Positions 1 through 6,314 of a DNA stretch of 64,000 bases are shown here, piece after piece. This DNA is from Enterococcus rotai (GTDB lineage Bacteria > Bacillota > Bacilli > Lactobacillales > Enterococcaceae). The notes beneath the pieces were generated by a model that was not told the DNA's origin, searched no databases, and saw nothing but the letters and a program-made list of their open reading frames with translations. The DNA is taken from NCBI RefSeq assembly GCF_001465345.1, contig NZ_CP013655.1:1253349-1317348 (forward strand), read 5' to 3'. The stretch's first letter is position 1; every line of letters begins with the position of its first letter. The position numbers were made by a program, and so were the translations under genes.

Positions 1-40
1 AGGTTTTGATTGTCTAATTATTTAGGAATGTTAATAACCG

Positions 41-204
41 GACAAAGATGTCCTGTTAGAAAAAGACAGAAAAAAGTAAAGTAATACATGTAAAGAGGAA
101 ACAGAGCAAAAAACTAGAAAGGAGCTAACGAGTTCTAGTAAGGATTATAAAAAATGACAAAGATGTCCTGTTAGAAAAAAGGATAAAACAGTAAAGTAAT
201 ACAT
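41..204 (+). repeat. Two 49-bp direct repeats upstream of the peptide locus
   Basis: Copies lie at 41-89 and 156-204 (offset 115). The first 20 bases (GACAAAGATGTCCTGTTAGA) are identical, and the last 14 (GTAAAGTAATACAT) also match; the middle is A-rich and diverged but has the same length. Each copy contains the dyad GACA-AAGA-TGTC, extended to GGACA/TGTCC in copy 1. Copy 2 ends 42 nt before the ATG of the small peptide ORF at 247. A regulated promoter/operator duplicated in tandem is the simplest reading, but I could not define a convincing -35/-10 pair. Confidence 0.6.
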
Positions 205-246: not shown

Positions 247-291
247 ATGAAATTATGGAGCATCTTATGTAATTTTTGGTGGAGAATATAA
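247..291 (+). CDS. 14-residue Trp-rich peptide ORF (possible signal or leaderless peptide)
   Basis: An ATG at 247 follows the ribosome site AAAGGAGGAA (229-238) at normal spacing and encodes MKLWSILCNFWWRI then TAA. The product has three Trp, one Cys and two or three basic residues, a composition like the aromatic core peptide encoded at 5913 and 6084. There is no room for a double-glycine leader or signal peptide. It could be a pheromone-type small hydrophobic peptide, a leaderless antimicrobial or a translated leader. The strong ribosome site and the direct repeats just upstream are the only evidence of expression, and I know of no matching family. Confidence 0.4.
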   Translation: MKLWSILCNFWWRI

Positions 292-371: not shown

Positions 372-578
372 ATGACAAAGATAAAATATTTTTTTAAAGA
401 TCAAGAAGTTATACATAGAAAATTAGTTATTGTAAATGATGGCAATGAAGATAAGCTATTGAAAATACTTAACAAAGGCGAGCTGTTGAAAATTGTTATG
501 CTTCCTCAAAAAACAGAAAAGGAATTACTTTTTGATTATTTGAATGTAGAAGATGTTGAAGTGCTAGAAATAAAGTAA
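372..578 (+). CDS. Hypothetical protein, 68 aa
   Basis: This small, lysine-rich, probably cytosolic protein has no membrane segment and no motif I recognise. The N-terminal half alternates beta-like segments (KLVIVNDGNEDKLLKIL) and the C-terminus is acidic (YLNVEDVEVLEIK). A weak purine-rich ribosome site precedes the ATG. It sits 33 bases before the ABC ATPase gene and probably belongs to the same transcript. Its position invites a role in immunity or regulation of the peptide system, but nothing in the sequence shows this. Confidence 0.55.
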   Translation: MTKIKYFFKDQEVIHRKLVIVNDGNEDKLLKILNKGELLKIVMLPQKTEKELLFDYLNVEDVEVLEIK

Positions 579-611
579 AGAAAATTCAGTTAAATCATAG
601 GAGTGATAAAG

Positions 612-1508
612 ATGCAAGAAGTTACAATGAATAACTATTTAGTAAAAACGAAGAGTTTAGTAAAAAAATATAAAGATTATCATGCTGTAAATGAAGTATC
701 AATGACGATCAATCAGGGAGATATTTATGGATTTATTGGTAAAAATGGTGCAGGTAAAACGACTTTTATTCGGATGTTAACTAATTTAATCGAGAAAAGT
801 TCAGGTAGTATCGAATTTTTTAACGGTAAGGAAAAAATAAAAGTTGGTGCTGTGATAGAATCACCAGCATGCTACCCCTATCTATCTGCACAAGAAAATT
901 TGAATTATTATGCTATTCAAATTAATTTGCCTGATAGAAAAAATCGCATTAAAGAAGTGCTGGAGTTTATTGGATTAGGAGCTGTGGGTAAGAAAATGTT
1001 TAAAGATTTTTCTTTAGGCATGAAGCAGCGCTTAGGCATTGGGTTAGCTATTTTGAATAATCCGAATTTACTTATTTTAGATGAACCAACTAATGGTTTA
1101 GATCCACAAGGGATTGTTGAAATTAGAGAAATCATAAAAAAATTAAATAAAGAGTACAAAACAACGATCTTAGTATCCAGTCATATTTTATCAGAATTAT
1201 CAATGATAGCGACTAGATATGGAATTATTCACCAAGGAAAATTGATTAAAGAAGTGACGACTCAAGAACTTGAGACTGAATGCAAAAAAACAATCATTCT
1301 ATCAAGTATGGATAATCAAAAATGCCAGGATGTTTTAGAAAAAGAAGGGTATGTTGTGCATATTGATGATGCTAAATTAACAGTTAATGCAGAAAAGTCT
1401 GAAATGCCAAGTATTTCTGAGCTTCTATTTAACAATCAATTGTATCTTACTTATTTTTCATACAAAGAAGAAAGCTTAGAAGACTATTATTTAAAATTAA
1501 CAGAGTAG
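612..1508 (+). CDS. ABC-2 type exporter, ATP-binding subunit (self-protection candidate)
   Basis: The 298-residue protein has one ABC ATPase domain: Walker A GKNGAGKTT (about residues 43-51), signature SLGMKQR (about 134-140), Walker B LLILDEP (about 153-159) and the switch His in SSHILSE. It matches the BcrA/LanF-like ATPases of antibiotic and lantibiotic self-protection exporters. A GTG at 603 is in frame, but it overlaps the ribosome site AGGAG (599-603); the ATG at 612 has normal spacing and was chosen. It is followed 12 bases later by its membrane partner. With a bacteriocin-like peptide in the locus, a role in producer immunity is inferred from context. Confidence 0.88.
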   Translation: MQEVTMNNYLVKTKSLVKKYKDYHAVNEVSMTINQGDIYGFIGKNGAGKTTFIRMLTNLIEKSSGSIEFFNGKEKIKVGAVIESPACYPYLSAQENLNYYAIQINLPDRKNRIKEVLEFIGLGAVGKKMFKDFSLGMKQRLGIGLAILNNPNLLILDEPTNGLDPQGIVEIREIIKKLNKEYKTTILVSSHILSELSMIATRYGIIHQGKLIKEVTTQELETECKKTIILSSMDNQKCQDVLEKEGYVVHIDDAKLTVNAEKSEMPSISELLFNNQLYLTYFSYKEESLEDYYLKLTE

Positions 1509-1520
1509 AGGAGAGTTTAT

Positions 1521-2243
1521 ATGTTAAGTCTATTAAAATCAGATAGTTATAGAATTTTAAAAGGAAAGCTTGGTTTTTATTCAGTAGCAGGTTTAATCAT
1601 ATTCGGCATATTTTTTGGAATAGTTAGAGATGATACACCCAGTTTAGAAGTGATCCAAGATGGTTTATCTAGTGCTTCGATTTTTGTCTCAATTTTTATG
1701 ATCAATATTTTTATTATTGTTTGGGGCCATGAGTTTACTTATCGGGTCGTCAATAATTCATTGATTTTTGGAATTAAAAGATGGGTATATTTTCTAAGCA
1801 AGGTTGTATTAACCTTCGGTATGGTGATTCTCTTTTTAGTCATTTATACAGGAGCATTAGCGAGTACGGTGTGGATCACAGGTGGCGGTTTTTCTCTGAT
1901 CGAAATGATAAAAATAATGTTATTGCAGCTACCATTGTATTTTTCAGTCAGTCTTATAGGTGTATTGTTGTTTAACGTTATTAAATCAAGTAATGTTGCA
2001 ACGGCCGTATTTGTAGCGCTGATTTTGATTGGAGAAGGTCTAGTTTCAAGCATTATCTCAAGTTATTTTTTAGCAGCAAATGCGCTATTAGATACGCTAC
2101 TATTTACGAATATTAGACAACTGACAGACTATCAAAATGTATCAAACCAGACCTTTGTAATTGTTTTTAGCAGTGCATTAGTCTATAGCATCATATTCTA
2201 TGTATGTAGCTATACTTTATTTAAAGAAAGAGATTTCAAATAA
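1521..2243 (+). CDS. ABC-2 type exporter, membrane subunit
   Basis: The 240-residue protein has about six hydrophobic segments and the layout of ABC-2 permeases of the LanE/LanG and BcrB type: a short cytosolic N-terminus (MLSLLKSDSYRILKGK), a first helix at about residues 20-35, and a charged C-terminal tail. The ribosome site GAGGAG lies just before the ATG. It directly follows its ATPase and is followed by the anchored protein at 2272. The pair would export or expel a hydrophobic peptide from the membrane; the substrate is inferred from context. Confidence 0.82.
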   Translation: MLSLLKSDSYRILKGKLGFYSVAGLIIFGIFFGIVRDDTPSLEVIQDGLSSASIFVSIFMINIFIIVWGHEFTYRVVNNSLIFGIKRWVYFLSKVVLTFGMVILFLVIYTGALASTVWITGGGFSLIEMIKIMLLQLPLYFSVSLIGVLLFNVIKSSNVATAVFVALILIGEGLVSSIISSYFLAANALLDTLLFTNIRQLTDYQNVSNQTFVIVFSSALVYSIIFYVCSYTLFKERDFK

Positions 2244-2271
2244 TAAAAAATAGAAGAGGGAAGTGAATTGT

Positions 2272-2835
2272 ATGAAAAAGAAACTGATGATTTTAATCCT
2301 TGTGGTCGCAGTTGTTCTTTTTGTTGGCTATACAACAATACGCTCAGATAAAACCACAAAAGCTATAACAAAAGAGTGGAGTTTTTCAGCAGATGTGATT
2401 GACTCGCTATCGTTATTGGGCGCAGAACAAGATGTTAAGACAACGATTATTGAAACTGAAAAAGAAGAAACTGTGGTTAAATTAGCTGGAAAAGTGTCTG
2501 ATAAAACAGAAAAAGAGCTCAATAAGGCAAAGACTAAGGCAGCGAGTTTAGAAATTACATTGTCCGATATAGATGGATTCAAATTGATGCCAAGCAGTGA
2601 TGGGAAAAGTGAACTAGAAATGAAAGTTTTCTTAGGTAAAAATGCAAGCATAAAAAATTTGAAAATAGAGTCAATAGTAGGAAATGTTGATGTTACGGTC
2701 CCGCAAGATTTTCAAGGGAAGTATGTGACGACTGCTAAAAATGGCGGAGAAGTTTTAGCAGTTCCAGATACAAGTAAAGATCAGGATGAAGTTATAGAGA
2801 TTAGTACCATCGGAGATATTCGCATTAAAAAGTAA
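2272..2835 (+). CDS. Membrane-anchored beta-rich protein (DUF4097-like)
   Basis: The 187-residue protein begins with an uncleaved-looking N-terminal helix (KLMILILVVAVVLFVGY) and continues as an extracellular domain rich in short beta repeats (IKNLKIESIVGNVDVTVP, EVIEISTIGDIRIKK). This pattern resembles the DUF4097/adhesin-like beta-helix proteins often found beside ABC-2 exporters. A GTG at 2263 is in frame, but it is only two bases from the purine-rich ribosome site, so the ATG at 2272 was chosen. It lies between the exporter and the C39 transporter and may be a third component of the self-protection module. The family link is by general pattern only. Confidence 0.6.
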   Translation: MKKKLMILILVVAVVLFVGYTTIRSDKTTKAITKEWSFSADVIDSLSLLGAEQDVKTTIIETEKEETVVKLAGKVSDKTEKELNKAKTKAASLEITLSDIDGFKLMPSSDGKSELEMKVFLGKNASIKNLKIESIVGNVDVTVPQDFQGKYVTTAKNGGEVLAVPDTSKDQDEVIEISTIGDIRIKK

Positions 2836-2847
2836 GGAGAATGTACT

Positions 2848-4965
2848 ATGTATGCCCATTATATGCAACATTCAACGACAGATTGTGGAATCGCCTCGTT
2901 AAAAACGATATTAAAACAACTACGAATAAAAATTGGTAATGAGAATGAATTATATCAACATTATAGTATTAAAAAAACGCAAGGACTTTCTCTTGATGAA
3001 ATGAAAACCATTTTAAAAAAGTACGGAGTGAACTCTAGTGCATATGGAGTGACAGATTTTGAGAAATTAAAAAAAGTTGAAAAGCTTCCTATGCTATTGG
3101 TCGTAGAGAATGATGGTGTGGGTCACTATATAGTTGTTCATGAGATAAAGGATAATCAGTCATTCATAGTCTCTAATCCTGCAGAAAGAACTCTAATAGA
3201 ATACGATGAAGCCTATTTAAAATCGATATTTTTAGGCTATGCCCTATGTATTGCAGATTCTAATTCACTTGTTACAAATAGATCAAAAATGAAATTCAGA
3301 ATGAATAAGGTGGAATCAAGTTTAGGTAAAAGACTTTACAAAGAAGTCATGCAAGAGATTTCTTATAGCTTAAAAGTAAAAATGATTGGATTGATCTTGT
3401 TAAAATACCTACTTCCGATAGTAACAACTTTTCTAATTCAAGGAACACTATCATTAAATAGAACAGATTCTGCTCCTATGTTTGTTTTTGTAATATCTGT
3501 AGCGTTATTGTTGATTTTAGGATTCTATAAAATCAATATTATGGAAGGAAAGCAAAAAGTTACACTTGAAAATAAGATTCAAGAAAAAATTTTAATGAAA
3601 TATTATGTTCAAAAAGTTAGTGATATCAAATCTGGCGGTAATAGTGATAATGTCACTGGTTATTTTTGGAATTTGTTTGGTTCAGTTTCGGGTTTGCTGG
3701 AAAAATTTTATTTTAAGCTTAATTTAGTTTATGTGTTGCTATTGGCAAGTATTGTTTTCAGTATAACGCCTTTATTATTTGGTGTTTTAGTTTTCTGGAT
3801 TGGTTTATTTTCTTATTTTTTAAAAAGGAAAATAGATATTATTAGAAATAATGAAAAAGATGTCATTGGAAAATCATCGGCGTTTTCATTCTCTGTTGAG
3901 AATAATATTAAAAGCTCATTTGATATCAATTTGTTTTCCAAGAATAAAGAAGCAGAAAGCTTTGTTCAACAGAAAATCCAAGATTATTTTGAAAGTAAAA
4001 ATCAAATGGTCACGAATGATTTGAAAATAGCTTCAATGTTTCAAGTGTTTTCAACGCTTATCTCAATTTCAACATTTGTTGTGTTCGGTGTAAATGCAGC
4101 ACTTCACACTGGAAGTACTACTAGTTTATTAAATGATTCAAATGGTATTTTGATTATTTCTATCATACTTAGTTCAGTTGCGCCAGTTCTGCAATCATGG
4201 TTGAGTTATCAAAAAAGTGCCATTGCGATTGATTATATTCAAAGTGGCGAAGATTATACTGAGCAAGCGGAAAAATCAGAGGATGTATTAGATGTTCCAA
4301 AAATCACCACTATTGATGTGAAGAATTTGAATTTTTCTTATGATGAGAAAAAAACGATATTCAAACAGTTTGATACGAGATTTGAAGCAGGAAAACTATA
4401 CACTCTTATTGGAGATAATGGTTGCGGAAAATCAACACTCATTAATTTACTTTCAGGGGTGTTAGATCCAGATTCTGGAACAATGATTGTTAATGAATCA
4501 GTCGAAAAGAGCTCATTTAAAAATACCAATATTAGAGAATATATTAGTTTGTATTCGCCTGAATTCAATTTGTATGGCAATACCGTTGGTCGTAATATTC
4601 GCTATAAGGTGTTTAACGAGCCTTTGACAACAGAGGAGAAGTCTCACTATGATGACTTGCTGGATTTAAAGTTGCCAAATAGTTATTTCATTCAGAGTGA
4701 GGGGCGGAACTTATCTCAAGGTCAAAAACAAAAAATTCTATTAATGCGAGCTTTGTATCAAGATACAAGCCTTTATATTTTTGATGAACCAACTGGAAAT
4801 TTAGATAGTGCGTCTAAGAAAAAATTTATGAATTATATCAAAAAACTAGCCAATGATGAAAAAAAGATCGTGATTGTAATAAGTCATGAGACAGATGTTT
4901 TAGAATATGCTGATGAAATTATCAATATAAAAGAAAAAAGACGGGGGGATAAGAATGAAAAATAA
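2848..4965 (+). CDS. Peptidase C39 / ABC transporter for double-glycine peptides
   Basis: The 705-residue bifunctional exporter removes the leader of a double-glycine precursor and exports the core. The N-terminal C39 domain (1-135) has Gln7, catalytic Cys13 in TDCGIASLKT and His93 in GHYIVV; the usual third-residue Asp is replaced by Asn110 (VSNPAE). A transmembrane block follows at about 165-460, then the ATPase domain: Walker A GDNGCGKST (about 522-530), signature LSQGQKQK (about 621-628), Walker B LYIFDEPTG. The length fits the family. Its substrate is most likely the precursor encoded at 5913 and 6084. It overlaps the next gene by 11 bases, so translation is probably coupled. Confidence 0.9.
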   Translation: MYAHYMQHSTTDCGIASLKTILKQLRIKIGNENELYQHYSIKKTQGLSLDEMKTILKKYGVNSSAYGVTDFEKLKKVEKLPMLLVVENDGVGHYIVVHEIKDNQSFIVSNPAERTLIEYDEAYLKSIFLGYALCIADSNSLVTNRSKMKFRMNKVESSLGKRLYKEVMQEISYSLKVKMIGLILLKYLLPIVTTFLIQGTLSLNRTDSAPMFVFVISVALLLILGFYKINIMEGKQKVTLENKIQEKILMKYYVQKVSDIKSGGNSDNVTGYFWNLFGSVSGLLEKFYFKLNLVYVLLLASIVFSITPLLFGVLVFWIGLFSYFLKRKIDIIRNNEKDVIGKSSAFSFSVENNIKSSFDINLFSKNKEAESFVQQKIQDYFESKNQMVTNDLKIASMFQVFSTLISISTFVVFGVNAALHTGSTTSLLNDSNGILIISIILSSVAPVLQSWLSYQKSAIAIDYIQSGEDYTEQAEKSEDVLDVPKITTIDVKNLNFSYDEKKTIFKQFDTRFEAGKLYTLIGDNGCGKSTLINLLSGVLDPDSGTMIVNESVEKSSFKNTNIREYISLYSPEFNLYGNTVGRNIRYKVFNEPLTTEEKSHYDDLLDLKLPNSYFIQSEGRNLSQGQKQKILLMRALYQDTSLYIFDEPTGNLDSASKKKFMNYIKKLANDEKKIVIVISHETDVLEYADEIINIKEKRRGDKNEK

Positions 4966-5362
4966 AACAGGAATACTGTTATTGTCCATCGTTGTTATTG
5001 TATTTTTTGTGATTCTAACAGCAACTAAATCGAGTGCCAGTATAAAAGACAACACAATATCAATCCAGCAAATCGAAGATACCATTACAAACAAAGAAGA
5101 CACATTCATTTTAGTAGGAAATCGAAATTGCACGTCATGTCAAATGTTTCTCCCAATTTTAGAAAAAGCAGCGAAAAAAACAGATACTGAAGTCTATTAT
5201 CTGGATACTGAAAATACTAGTAATAAAAAGTTTATAACTAGTAATAACGTAACAGTGACACCAACGATACTAGTGATCAAAGCTGGTGAACTAACACGCT
5301 ATGAAGGTGCTCTAGAGTATGACACAACAAAAAATATTCTTGAAGGTAGGGAAGTAGAATGA
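4955..5362 (+). CDS. Thioredoxin-like membrane-anchored protein (peptide disulfide handling)
   Basis: The 135-residue protein has an N-terminal signal anchor (about residues 5-22) and an extracellular thioredoxin-like domain. The CxxC motif is C59-T-S-C62 in NRNCTSCQMF, and a TPT segment (VTVTPTILV) fits the cis-Pro loop. The gene overlaps the transporter by 11 bases and the next gene by 4 bases (ATGA). Similar proteins beside bacteriocin exporters help form disulfides in the exported peptide. The core peptide here has exactly two cysteines, which fits. Whether it acts as oxidase, isomerase or redox partner cannot be read from the sequence. Confidence 0.8.
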   Translation: MKNKTGILLLSIVVIVFFVILTATKSSASIKDNTISIQQIEDTITNKEDTFILVGNRNCTSCQMFLPILEKAAKKTDTEVYYLDTENTSNKKFITSNNVTVTPTILVIKAGELTRYEGALEYDTTKNILEGREVE

Positions 5363-5871
5363 AGTTAAAGAGAATAGCAGTAATCTTGTCAGTAATTGGA
5401 TTGTTTAGCTTGGGTGGAACGGCATATGCATTAAAAGTAGACAATGATAAGAAAGATCAGCAATTAGTTGTTGAACAGTCTAACTATCCAGAGATTTACA
5501 ACACGGTAGATTCAATTACGTTTGATAGCTTTAAAGAAAAACTTGAAAAACGAGAAGATTTTTATGTTTATGTAGGTCGACCTACATGTGGAGACTGTAA
5601 TGACTTTGAGCCGGAATTTATTAAATTGGTGGAAGAAAAAAACATTTCACAACAGATATTTTATTTAAATGTCGCAAAGGTTAAAGAGAATGAGGAAGAA
5701 TGGGAAAAGTTCAAGTTGGATTACAACATTAAGTATACTCCAACACTAGCTAAATATAGTAAAGGTATTTTGACGAATAAAATAGAGTGGACACCCGAAA
5801 ATGGAATATCCCTGCAGAAAGTCGCAGAGTGGATAGATAGATATGTTGAGCCAGCAGCGTTAGTCAAATAA
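5359..5871 (+). CDS. Bacteriocin accessory protein-like thioredoxin-fold protein
   Basis: The 170-residue exported protein has an N-terminal signal or anchor (about residues 5-24) and a thioredoxin-like domain with C77-G-D-C80 in GRPTCGDCNDFEP and the cis-Pro-type segment IKYTPTLAKY. This is the pattern of PedC/Bta-type bacteriocin transport accessory proteins. It is translationally coupled to the preceding thioredoxin-like gene (4-base overlap) and lies 41 bases before the first peptide gene. Two such proteins in a row suggest a redox pair, one oxidising the peptide and one recycling or isomerising; that division of labour is inference. Confidence 0.8.
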   Translation: MKLKRIAVILSVIGLFSLGGTAYALKVDNDKKDQQLVVEQSNYPEIYNTVDSITFDSFKEKLEKREDFYVYVGRPTCGDCNDFEPEFIKLVEEKNISQQIFYLNVAKVKENEEEWEKFKLDYNIKYTPTLAKYSKGILTNKIEWTPENGISLQKVAEWIDRYVEPAALVK

Positions 5872-5912: not shown

Positions 5913-6008
5913 ATGAAAGAATTAACGAAAAATGAAGCAAAAACAGTAGAGGGTGGATTGAGATTTTGTTTCTTCTATTGGAAAGGCTGGGGCTTCTTCT
6001 GTAAATAA
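5913..6008 (+). CDS. Double-glycine leader precursor of a 16-residue two-Cys aromatic peptide, copy 1
   Basis: The precursor has 31 residues and is preceded by a strong ribosome site (GAGGAGG, about 5899-5903). The leader MKELTKNEAKTVEGG ends in GG and has hydrophobic residues at -4 (Val), -7 (Ala) and -12 (Leu), the spacing recognised by C39 peptidases. The predicted mature peptide is LRFCFFYWKGWGFFCK: 16 residues, charge about +3, eight aromatic residues, and Cys at core positions 4 and 15, which could close a 12-residue disulfide ring. A processing exporter and two thioredoxin-like proteins are encoded just upstream. Bacteriocin or secreted signal are both possible. I do not recognise the core from any described bacteriocin. 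Confidence 0.82.
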   Translation: MKELTKNEAKTVEGGLRFCFFYWKGWGFFCK

Positions 6009-6083
6009 GAAGGCAGTAAGTAAGAGAGAACAGGTTTAAAGGGAATCAATGTAAAGCAACCATAAAAAGAGGAGGAAAAGAAG

Positions 6084-6179
6084 ATGAAAGAATTAACGAA
6101 AAATGAAGCAAAAACAGTAGAGGGTGGATTGAGATTTTGTTTCTTCTATTGGAAGGGCTGGGGCTTCTTCTGCAAATAA
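6084..6179 (+). CDS. Double-glycine leader precursor of a 16-residue two-Cys aromatic peptide, copy 2
   Basis: The encoded protein is identical to that of the gene at 5913; the DNA differs at two silent positions. It has the same ribosome site at the same distance. Two copies would raise peptide dose, and the absence of any amino-acid change argues for a recent duplication, gene conversion or strong selection on the sequence. A terminator follows about 100 bases downstream. Confidence 0.82.
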   Translation: MKELTKNEAKTVEGGLRFCFFYWKGWGFFCK

Positions 6180-6278
6180 AAAGAAGTAGCTAAGAGATCA
6201 CTAAGTTATTGAATAGAGTAAGTAATGAGTAAAAAAAGATAGAGATTTAAGTAGTTTATTCATAGAAACTACGATCGT

Positions 6279-6314
6279 GACCTGGTCCATTTAGGAACAG
6301 GTTGCGTTTTTTTG
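6279..6314 (+). terminator. Terminator of the peptide locus
   Basis: The stem ACCTGGTCC (6280-6288) pairs with GGAACAGGT (6294-6302) with one mismatch across a five-base loop, followed by a run of seven T. It closes the transcript carrying the peptide genes. A second inverted repeat, GTAGTTT/AAACTAC (6251-6272), lies just before it. Confidence 0.8.

Follow-up and report, generated by a model that had tools for sequence, protein, structure and literature searches.

Short peptides closed by one disulfide into an amphiphilic hairpin are an established design in animals, as in bactenecin and arenicin, and in bacteria the glycocins (sublancin, enterocin F4-9) bring together a C39 exporter, thioredoxin-like oxidases and disulfide peptides. 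Bactofencin A is described, in the accessible part of the source, as a peptide of 2782 Da with an intramolecular disulfide (PMC5465099). The streptococcal ComR boxes are 20-bp pseudo-palindromes with an inner GACA/TGTC, and the type II XIP pheromones bear a WW motif (accessible text of PMC5131891). ScuR/SarF of Streptococcus salivarius are ComR paralogues driving bacteriocins (PMC5131891, PMC6703854, both in their accessible parts). In a census of 13,513 complete genomes, ComR occurred mainly in Streptococcus; the key-genera table, the part accessible here, gives only PrgX for Enterococcus (PMC9765709). No enterococcal ComRS was found among the matches listed in our search of open-access rather than subscription papers, which included the accessible parts of PMC10075063 and PMC13361665.

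A compact cassette in Enterococcus rotai

The window analysed here is a stretch of 64,000 nucleotides from Enterococcus rotai, whose genome (G000; G and L numbers denote genomes and loci of this study) is a single contig of 3.75 Mb. The window carries an operon that, on balance, probably makes a quorum-controlled miniature class-II-like bacteriocin under a ComRS-type switch, its placement in class II being suggested by the leader, the exporter and the lack of modifying enzymes. On the forward strand, two ComR-box promoters (41-82 and 156-197) are followed by a 14-aa ORF, a 68-aa ORF, an ABC ATPase, a permease, a 190-aa protein, a C39 exporter, two thioredoxin-like proteins, two precursors and a likely terminator:

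37..56, + strand: ComR-box-like 20-mer 1; inner GACA-N4-TGTC at 41-52, -10-like TAAAGT at 77-82
152..171, + strand: ComR-box-like 20-mer 2; inner GACA-N4-TGTC at 156-167, -10-like TAAAGT at 192-197
247..291, + strand: XIP-like pheromone precursor MKLWSILCNFWWRI, 14 aa with WW; AGGAGG site
372..578, + strand: 68-aa protein of a type found beside ComR regulators; no Pfam or NCBIfam match
603..1508, + strand: ABC ATPase, lantibiotic-protection-like, putative immunity; Pfam ABC_tran
1521..2243, + strand: ABC permease, putative immunity; from position and hydrophobic sequence, no Pfam match
2263..2835, + strand: membrane-anchored beta protein, 190 aa, between permease and exporter; start probably at 2272
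2848..4965, + strand: C39 peptidase/ABC exporter; Pfam Peptidase_C39, E 2.1e-20
4955..5362, + strand: thioredoxin-like protein 1; thioredoxin fold, CTSC motif
5359..5871, + strand: thioredoxin-like protein 2; CGDC motif, PedC/BrcD-like below cut-off
5913..6008, + strand: precursor copy 1; 15-aa leader and core LRFCFFYWKGWGFFCK, GGAGG ribosome site
6084..6179, + strand: precursor copy 2; same protein as copy 1, GGAGG ribosome site
6276..6313, + strand: likely intrinsic terminator closing the operon; stem at 6276-6306, then 7 T

The terminator stretch folds at -20 kcal/mol (z -3.58), and a simple scan did not list 6276-6313. Flanking genes include a glucosamine-isomerase-like gene, msrA, a prepilin peptidase, a sugar kinase, a DUF5105 protein, a ferritin-like gene (dps), argH and argG. 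The sole Rfam match in the window at the gathering threshold is a ribosomal protein L13 leader (RF00555, 13943-13997).

An earlier note, made from the sequence without database searches, had placed a C39 exporter, two thioredoxin-like proteins and an "ABC-2 exporter" upstream of the precursors; the exporter and the thioredoxin-like pair stand, and the last item resolves into an ATPase matching Pfam ABC_tran and a putative permease without a Pfam match. Against TIGR03740 the ATPase scores 229 bits, under the cut-off of 309.75. Foldseek and VIA relate the 190-aa protein to putative adhesins through a common beta arrangement alone, and no function was assigned to it from this likeness. The note's statement that modifying enzymes are missing agrees with the 16 proteins in and around the cassette (10 from the cassette region, 6 flanking), among which none of lanthipeptide, sactipeptide or glycocin type was found, and the Pfam matches of the window cassette include no known bacteriocin immunity family. 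Its proposal of a unit that makes, oxidises, exports and protects is upheld for the first three functions by the conserved precursor-exporter-thioredoxin neighbourhoods described below; protection is plausible only. A CxxC motif occurs in 37 of the 38 thioredoxin-like proteins of 19 cassettes, the window's two proteins being those compared with Pfam; the exception is the truncated second gene of E. crotali.

The precursor peptides

Both ORFs (5913-6008 and 6084-6179) encode the same 31-residue precursor, as the earlier note had claimed, with leader MKELTKNEAKTVEGG and core LRFCFFYWKGWGFFCK; what distinguishes the copies is 2 synonymous changes in 96 bases. Recomputation returned the reported properties of the core, namely aromatic residues at 8 of 16 positions, a charge of +3 and cysteines at positions 4 and 15, and direct reading likewise found no YGNGV box of the pediocin-like class IIa. 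In the leader, also read directly, positions -4, -7, -12 and -15 are hydrophobic and position -8 is E, in keeping with the consensus for such leaders. Its assignment to the C39 type is borne out by the double-glycine ending together with the adjacent C39 exporter, a pairing kept in 13 array cassettes, and export by this route is very probable.

A precursor search of 22 genomes of the genus found four copies in G007 and four in G010, identical or one residue off, and three diverged matches in G012. Because near-identical precursors recur in G007 and G010, the window precursors are not chance ORFs and are almost certainly real genes. The 10 copies of the window-type core differ by 8 synonymous variants and by no amino-acid variant, where all possible single-base core changes stand at 20:124, which suggests purifying selection.

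No family in Pfam or NCBIfam exceeded its curated cut-off for any of 11 precursors, and six core strings were absent from the open-access literature searched, in line with the earlier opinion that this is not a described peptide. Nothing alike appeared in the titles and abstract starts of the matches listed for short hairpin double-glycine bacteriocins, or for bacteriocins and quorum sensing in these species. The sub-cut-off candidates for the precursors were dismissed: Pfam Sec7-like_HDS (E 0.00089, 19.5 bits against a cut-off of 23.5; others likewise below theirs), NCBIfam MPN313 (E 0.11), and small_SCO1431, leader_Chryseo and RNaseT2Fam (E 0.05-0.09).

A family of tandem arrays

With exporter residues 1-488 as query, 21 places were found in 19 of 105 genomes of the bacterial family, and 13 of these places, picked as array cassettes after inspection of exporter loci and cores, hold tandem arrays of 2-9 precursor copies, 74 in total. 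Conserved neighbourhoods of precursor and exporter, the test that the earlier note had named beforehand, are thus present in 13 cassettes. All 74 array precursors contain exactly two cysteines, spaced C-x10-C or C-x6-C, two Cys being part of the array search pattern and the arrays having earlier been read without it. The other eight exporter places adjoin C-x9-C peptides (L065-L067), one C-x11-C peptide (L068) or larger multi-Cys peptides (L070, L071), or have a truncated exporter with no peptide found (L069, L072). At L069, in Enterococcus sp. BWB1-3, this is a second cassette with no array found, where an AgrD-like ORF adjoins a run of three kinase-like genes. The core table leaves out one chance ORF from L069 and, separately, three ORFs that are AgrD.

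The cores of the family are 12-19 aa long, and their types include KFCVVDAWGFKLFCWY, KWCFVNSILGIKICF, WKCVVVIGKIGLICWS and KFCVIMVGKVGIFCWS. The 12-mer core WVCVLWGA[IV]CWG occurs in 5-7 copies per array and has a charge of 0, unlike most cationic antimicrobials. One array, at L062, has 7 identical precursors, the largest has 9, and at L033 two of the 4 copies are overlapped by a reverse-strand ORF. In E. quebecensis (G012; L034:10247-11405) two different two-Cys cores alternate through three pairs, each core behind a leader of 41-42 aa, an arrangement like that of a two-peptide bacteriocin. Inspection of 10 of 17 weak precursor matches (E 0.09-0.93) found precursors only in the G002 pair. In an alignment of 19 rows, two of them the same, the invariant columns are Gly at -1 and the two Cys. 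The KFCVV copies (n=14) have 9 synonymous and 2 replacement changes in the core and 6 and 10 in the leader, and cores vary freely in the MFKL type (6 and 6; 8 and 10) and in the 58-aa G012 precursors (2 and 3), these counts leaving out two short and two long L057 copies of unequal length.

Beyond the bacterial family, an exporter profile matched 19 times in 395 sampled genomes of the order, twice outside the family, and in 398 sampled genomes of the phylum it gave one weak match besides the window's own genome. By eye, one of the order-level loci (G366) showed no array and another (G195) a 63-aa multi-Cys peptide. Peptides of 62-63 aa with three Cys at L070:3539-3727 and L102:13110-13301 look alike and have the same type of exporter, the two loci coming from different bacterial families. 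In the plasmid collection the precursor had no match and the exporter one (28%, Weissella), and no relative was found in viral contigs; these searches give no sign of mobility in the collections covered. Judged from their sequences, these peptides belong to an undescribed family. As far as we searched, three things are new: this family of peptides in arrays, a ComR/WW circuit in Enterococcus, and the swapping of regulators.

Predicted disulfide and hairpin

The loop between the cysteines comprises 10 residues, or 6 in the 12-mers. Glycine occupies one of the two central loop residues in 20 of 23 distinct loops (centre pairs KG, NG, WG, FG and GK), against 6.1 expected from loop composition, and none of 20,000 permutations reached 20 such loops; the permutation treats related loops as independent, which makes its p value too optimistic. 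This loop-centre Gly fits a disulfide-locked beta-hairpin, in which a central two-residue turn would give 4+2+4 and 2+2+2 registers with the cysteines facing each other. We hold the disulfide to be highly likely and the hairpin to be likely. For the oxidised window core the calculated monoisotopic mass is 2131.995 Da ([M+2H]2+ 1067.005), 2.016 below the reduced form. An AlphaFold2 model of the precursor, with strands at 19-21 and 28-30, was dropped as support for the hairpin, its pLDDT of 52.5 being too low.

Candidate ComR-type regulation

The gene for a ComR-family regulator lies directly upstream of the operon, just outside the window. Its G007 orthologue, to which the G000 gene is 89% identical, matches Pfam ComR_TPR (2.3e-58) and PDB entry 5fd4, "ComR" of S. 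suis (1.1e-52), and through this orthologue it is recognised as a ComR-type HTH plus TPR regulator. The earlier note, from which comR was hidden by the window boundary, had omitted the ComR boxes and the 14-aa ORF at 247-291.

The inner GACA-N4-TGTC occurs in the window at 41 and 156 only, a number that is not unusual for 64 kb (14 of 100 shuffles reach 2), and no WW ORF follows box 1. The geometry is more distinctive: in 14 loci, each of the 24 boxes is accompanied, exactly 36 bases from its start, by a -10-like hexamer that agrees with TATAAT at 4 or 5 positions out of 6; four of the boxes have a better hexamer at +48. When 7 box sites in six further loci were tried in both orientations, 5 fitted +36 in one orientation, and three of these (L128, L130, L135) have an orientation to comR that differs from that of the cassette boxes; the 2 non-fitting sites both lie inside coding sequence. 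A strict pattern of box plus -10 found 17 sites in 8 of 10 genomes (8 with a comR orthologue, 2 without), all between comR and this operon, and 0 when reversed; the pattern was modelled on these very sites and would miss weaker targets elsewhere. In G000 its only occurrence is at this locus, weaker sites again being liable to be missed, and because of this confinement there is no sign of competence control.

Of the 8 ComR cassettes, 7 have a WW ORF behind a box, as does the E. caccae relic described below; there are three such units in G012 and two in G004, and the G045 ComR cassette has only a single-Trp candidate peptide. Control of the operon by ComR is strongly suggested by these features.

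Among the 105 genomes, 17 have ComR homologues, at 21 places in all: 8 in cassettes, 1 in the relic and 12 elsewhere. Further ComR-type regulators with boxes were seen near ruvAB-like genes and other sites (L126, L127, L128-L131), with candidate pheromones that carry NWW or HW near the end; in G002, three comR paralogues lie side by side. A protein of 66-68 aa stands, by eye, directly behind ComR-type regulators and boxes in the window (372-578) and at L127:5886-6092, L129:6809-7015, L131:7858-8064 and L132:5881-6081, occurring also where no peptide cassette was seen. It is a possible ComR partner.

Regulators of the related cassettes

Grouped by regulator, the 13 array cassettes comprise 8 with ComR, 4 of Agr type and 1 that is ComQXPA-like. 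The Agr-type cassettes (L035, L058-L060) have no ComR box, and AgrB, AgrD and AgrC/AgrA-like genes lie beside the array; family tests were made at L035 only, where AgrB (1e-24), a GHKL kinase, a LytTR regulator and AgrD (20.1 bits against a cut-off of 19) were recognised. At L062 (G016), a polyprenyl synthetase (prenyltransferase), a HATPase kinase and a LuxR-type regulator form the ComQXPA-like set, together with a 52-aa ComX candidate that matches no family. The 12-mer core is found with ComR in G004 and G018 and with the ComQXPA-like set in G016. GHKL kinases accompany the looser relatives, whose peptides are of C-x9-C or C-x11-C type, and of these L068 also has the ABC, permease and 190-aa genes.

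In the exporter tree (midpoint root, two truncated exporters left out), a ComR-bearing clade (100/99) encloses the Agr clade (100/100), whose placement as sister to L057 has lower support (89/91). Cassettes with ComR and with the ComQXPA-like set occur together in the 12-mer clade (100/100). The peptide form stays constant while the regulator changes, which makes the peptide more likely an output than a signal. The two-Cys peptides are thus probably a quorum-controlled product.

Within the same exporter clade, longer C-x9-C double-glycine peptides lie by GHKL kinases at L066:788-1096, L065:1317-1421 and L067:7334-7438, and the second L066 peptide (986-1096) has an extra Cys in its leader. The surroundings of L065-L067 contain, by eye, a MacAB-like ABC set.

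Deletion in E. caccae and putative immunity

In E. caccae (G001; L125:3811-7862) the locus retains comR, the boxes and the WW ORF, along with open 68-aa, ABC, permease and 190-aa genes. A stretch of about 3.7 kb that begins at the start of the exporter and ends beyond the array is missing, so that exporter, thioredoxins and array were lost in one clean deletion. The flanks are 97% identical to G010, with a 5-base overlap at the junction, and a second, distant exporter cassette with C-x9-C peptides lies elsewhere in the genome. The gene content fits a protected non-producer of the window-type peptide; retention of the ABC genes could also reflect mere recency, the flanks still being 97% identical. 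Self-protection by the ABC pair plus the 190-aa gene is plausible, and for the ABC transporter an immunity function appears reasonably likely.

Proposed mechanism and alternative explanations

As in streptococcal ComRS, the 14-aa WW peptide (247-291) would be exported, trimmed and re-imported, and together with ComR it would activate the promoters at 77-82 and 192-197, leading to transcription of the whole operon to the terminator at 6276-6313. The C39 exporter would cut the leader after GG and export the 16-residue core, and the two thioredoxin-like proteins would close a Cys4-Cys15 disulfide spanning a 4+2+4 beta-hairpin with a Lys-Gly turn. The resulting amphiphilic aromatic hairpin might act on related bacteria by attacking their membrane or a target in it (we judge such antagonism fairly probable), while the ABC pair and the 190-aa surface protein would confer self-protection and multiple gene copies would raise the dose.

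A different role is conceivable for the two-Cys peptide, which could itself be the secreted signal (a pheromone, or a kin or host cue), with no more than fine adjustment left to the ComRS-type circuit. Some double-glycine peptides with C39 exporters are known pheromones, and the C-x9-C peptides of L065-L067 adjoin GHKL kinases with no AgrD noticed by eye in their ORF lists. However, the window cassette has no kinase, arrays reach 9 precursors and repeat one precursor 7 times in L062, and each of the three regulator types in the array cassettes comes with its own signal-gene candidate; a signalling role is therefore unlikely. The earlier note had left such a role open, observing that no kinase was nearby; that observation holds for the window cassette, and the role it left open is mostly superseded by the cassette's own ComR/WW switch.

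Two further readings are less probable still. The alternating pairs of two cores behind longer leaders in G012 are two-peptide-like and would suit a bacteriocin acting as a non-covalent pair or oligomer of linear peptides, with thioredoxin-like proteins that keep them reduced or serve the exporter, but two Cys in 74 of 74 precursors and loop-centre Gly in both loop lengths point to an intramolecular disulfide, which leaves this reading doubtful. A cassette that is now without function, as a neutral or decaying remnant, is very improbable: losses are seen in the E. caccae deletion, in exporters truncated in G016 (contig 23) and G075 and in the truncated thioredoxin of E. crotali, whereas in the window all genes are open, the precursors differ only synonymously, and boxes, -10 hexamers, WW ORF and terminator are present.

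The quorum-controlled bacteriocin is the reading that we retain. A broader proposal, on which we are evenly divided, is that these peptides form a new effector class: single-disulfide beta-hairpins of 12-19 residues in two registers (C-x10-C and C-x6-C), encoded by near-identical genes in tandem arrays on a portable cassette for making, oxidising, exporting and protecting, which is found across three and perhaps four peptide quorum-sensing systems that are unrelated to one another. One of them would be a dedicated circuit of ComR and WW pheromone outside Streptococcus. The 23 distinct loops would then offer very small, synthesisable and possibly antimicrobial disulfide hairpins with genes for oxidation, export and protection, and ComR/XIP-type signalling would be extended to Enterococcus. 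One effector cassette swapping quorum-sensing switches would constitute a natural experiment, and E. caccae, as a predicted sensing and tolerant non-maker of the peptide, could be used for social-evolution tests.

Comparison with known systems

The likeness to bactenecin and arenicin is one of analogy only, the charge being lower in window-type cores. Glycocins differ from the present system in that no glycosyltransferase is among the Pfam matches of the window cassette and the window cores are far shorter. The pneumococcal Rtg locus, which controls double-glycine peptides, differs from the window cassette in regulator family, peptides and thioredoxin pair. What the two have in common, in the accessible part of PMC13361665, is an Rgg-type regulator (RtgR) with a short Trp-containing pheromone (RtgS).

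The bactofencin A-related system, in the accessible text of PMC5465099, also has a structural peptide, an ABC transporter and a thioredoxin-family accessory protein. Compared with bactofencin A at 2782 Da, the window core is smaller (2132 Da, family cores 12-19 aa), and the cassette has two thioredoxins, tandem arrays and an ABC pair in the place of an immunity family, with no YGNGV box (PMC5465099, accessible part). The regulatory part resembles streptococcal ComRS in the sequence of ComR, the GACA/TGTC inner box and the WW pheromone (PMC5131891, accessible part). It differs from ComRS and from ScuR/SarF in its occurrence in Enterococcus, in its 14-aa precursor and in its coupling to the 68-aa protein and the peptide cassette.
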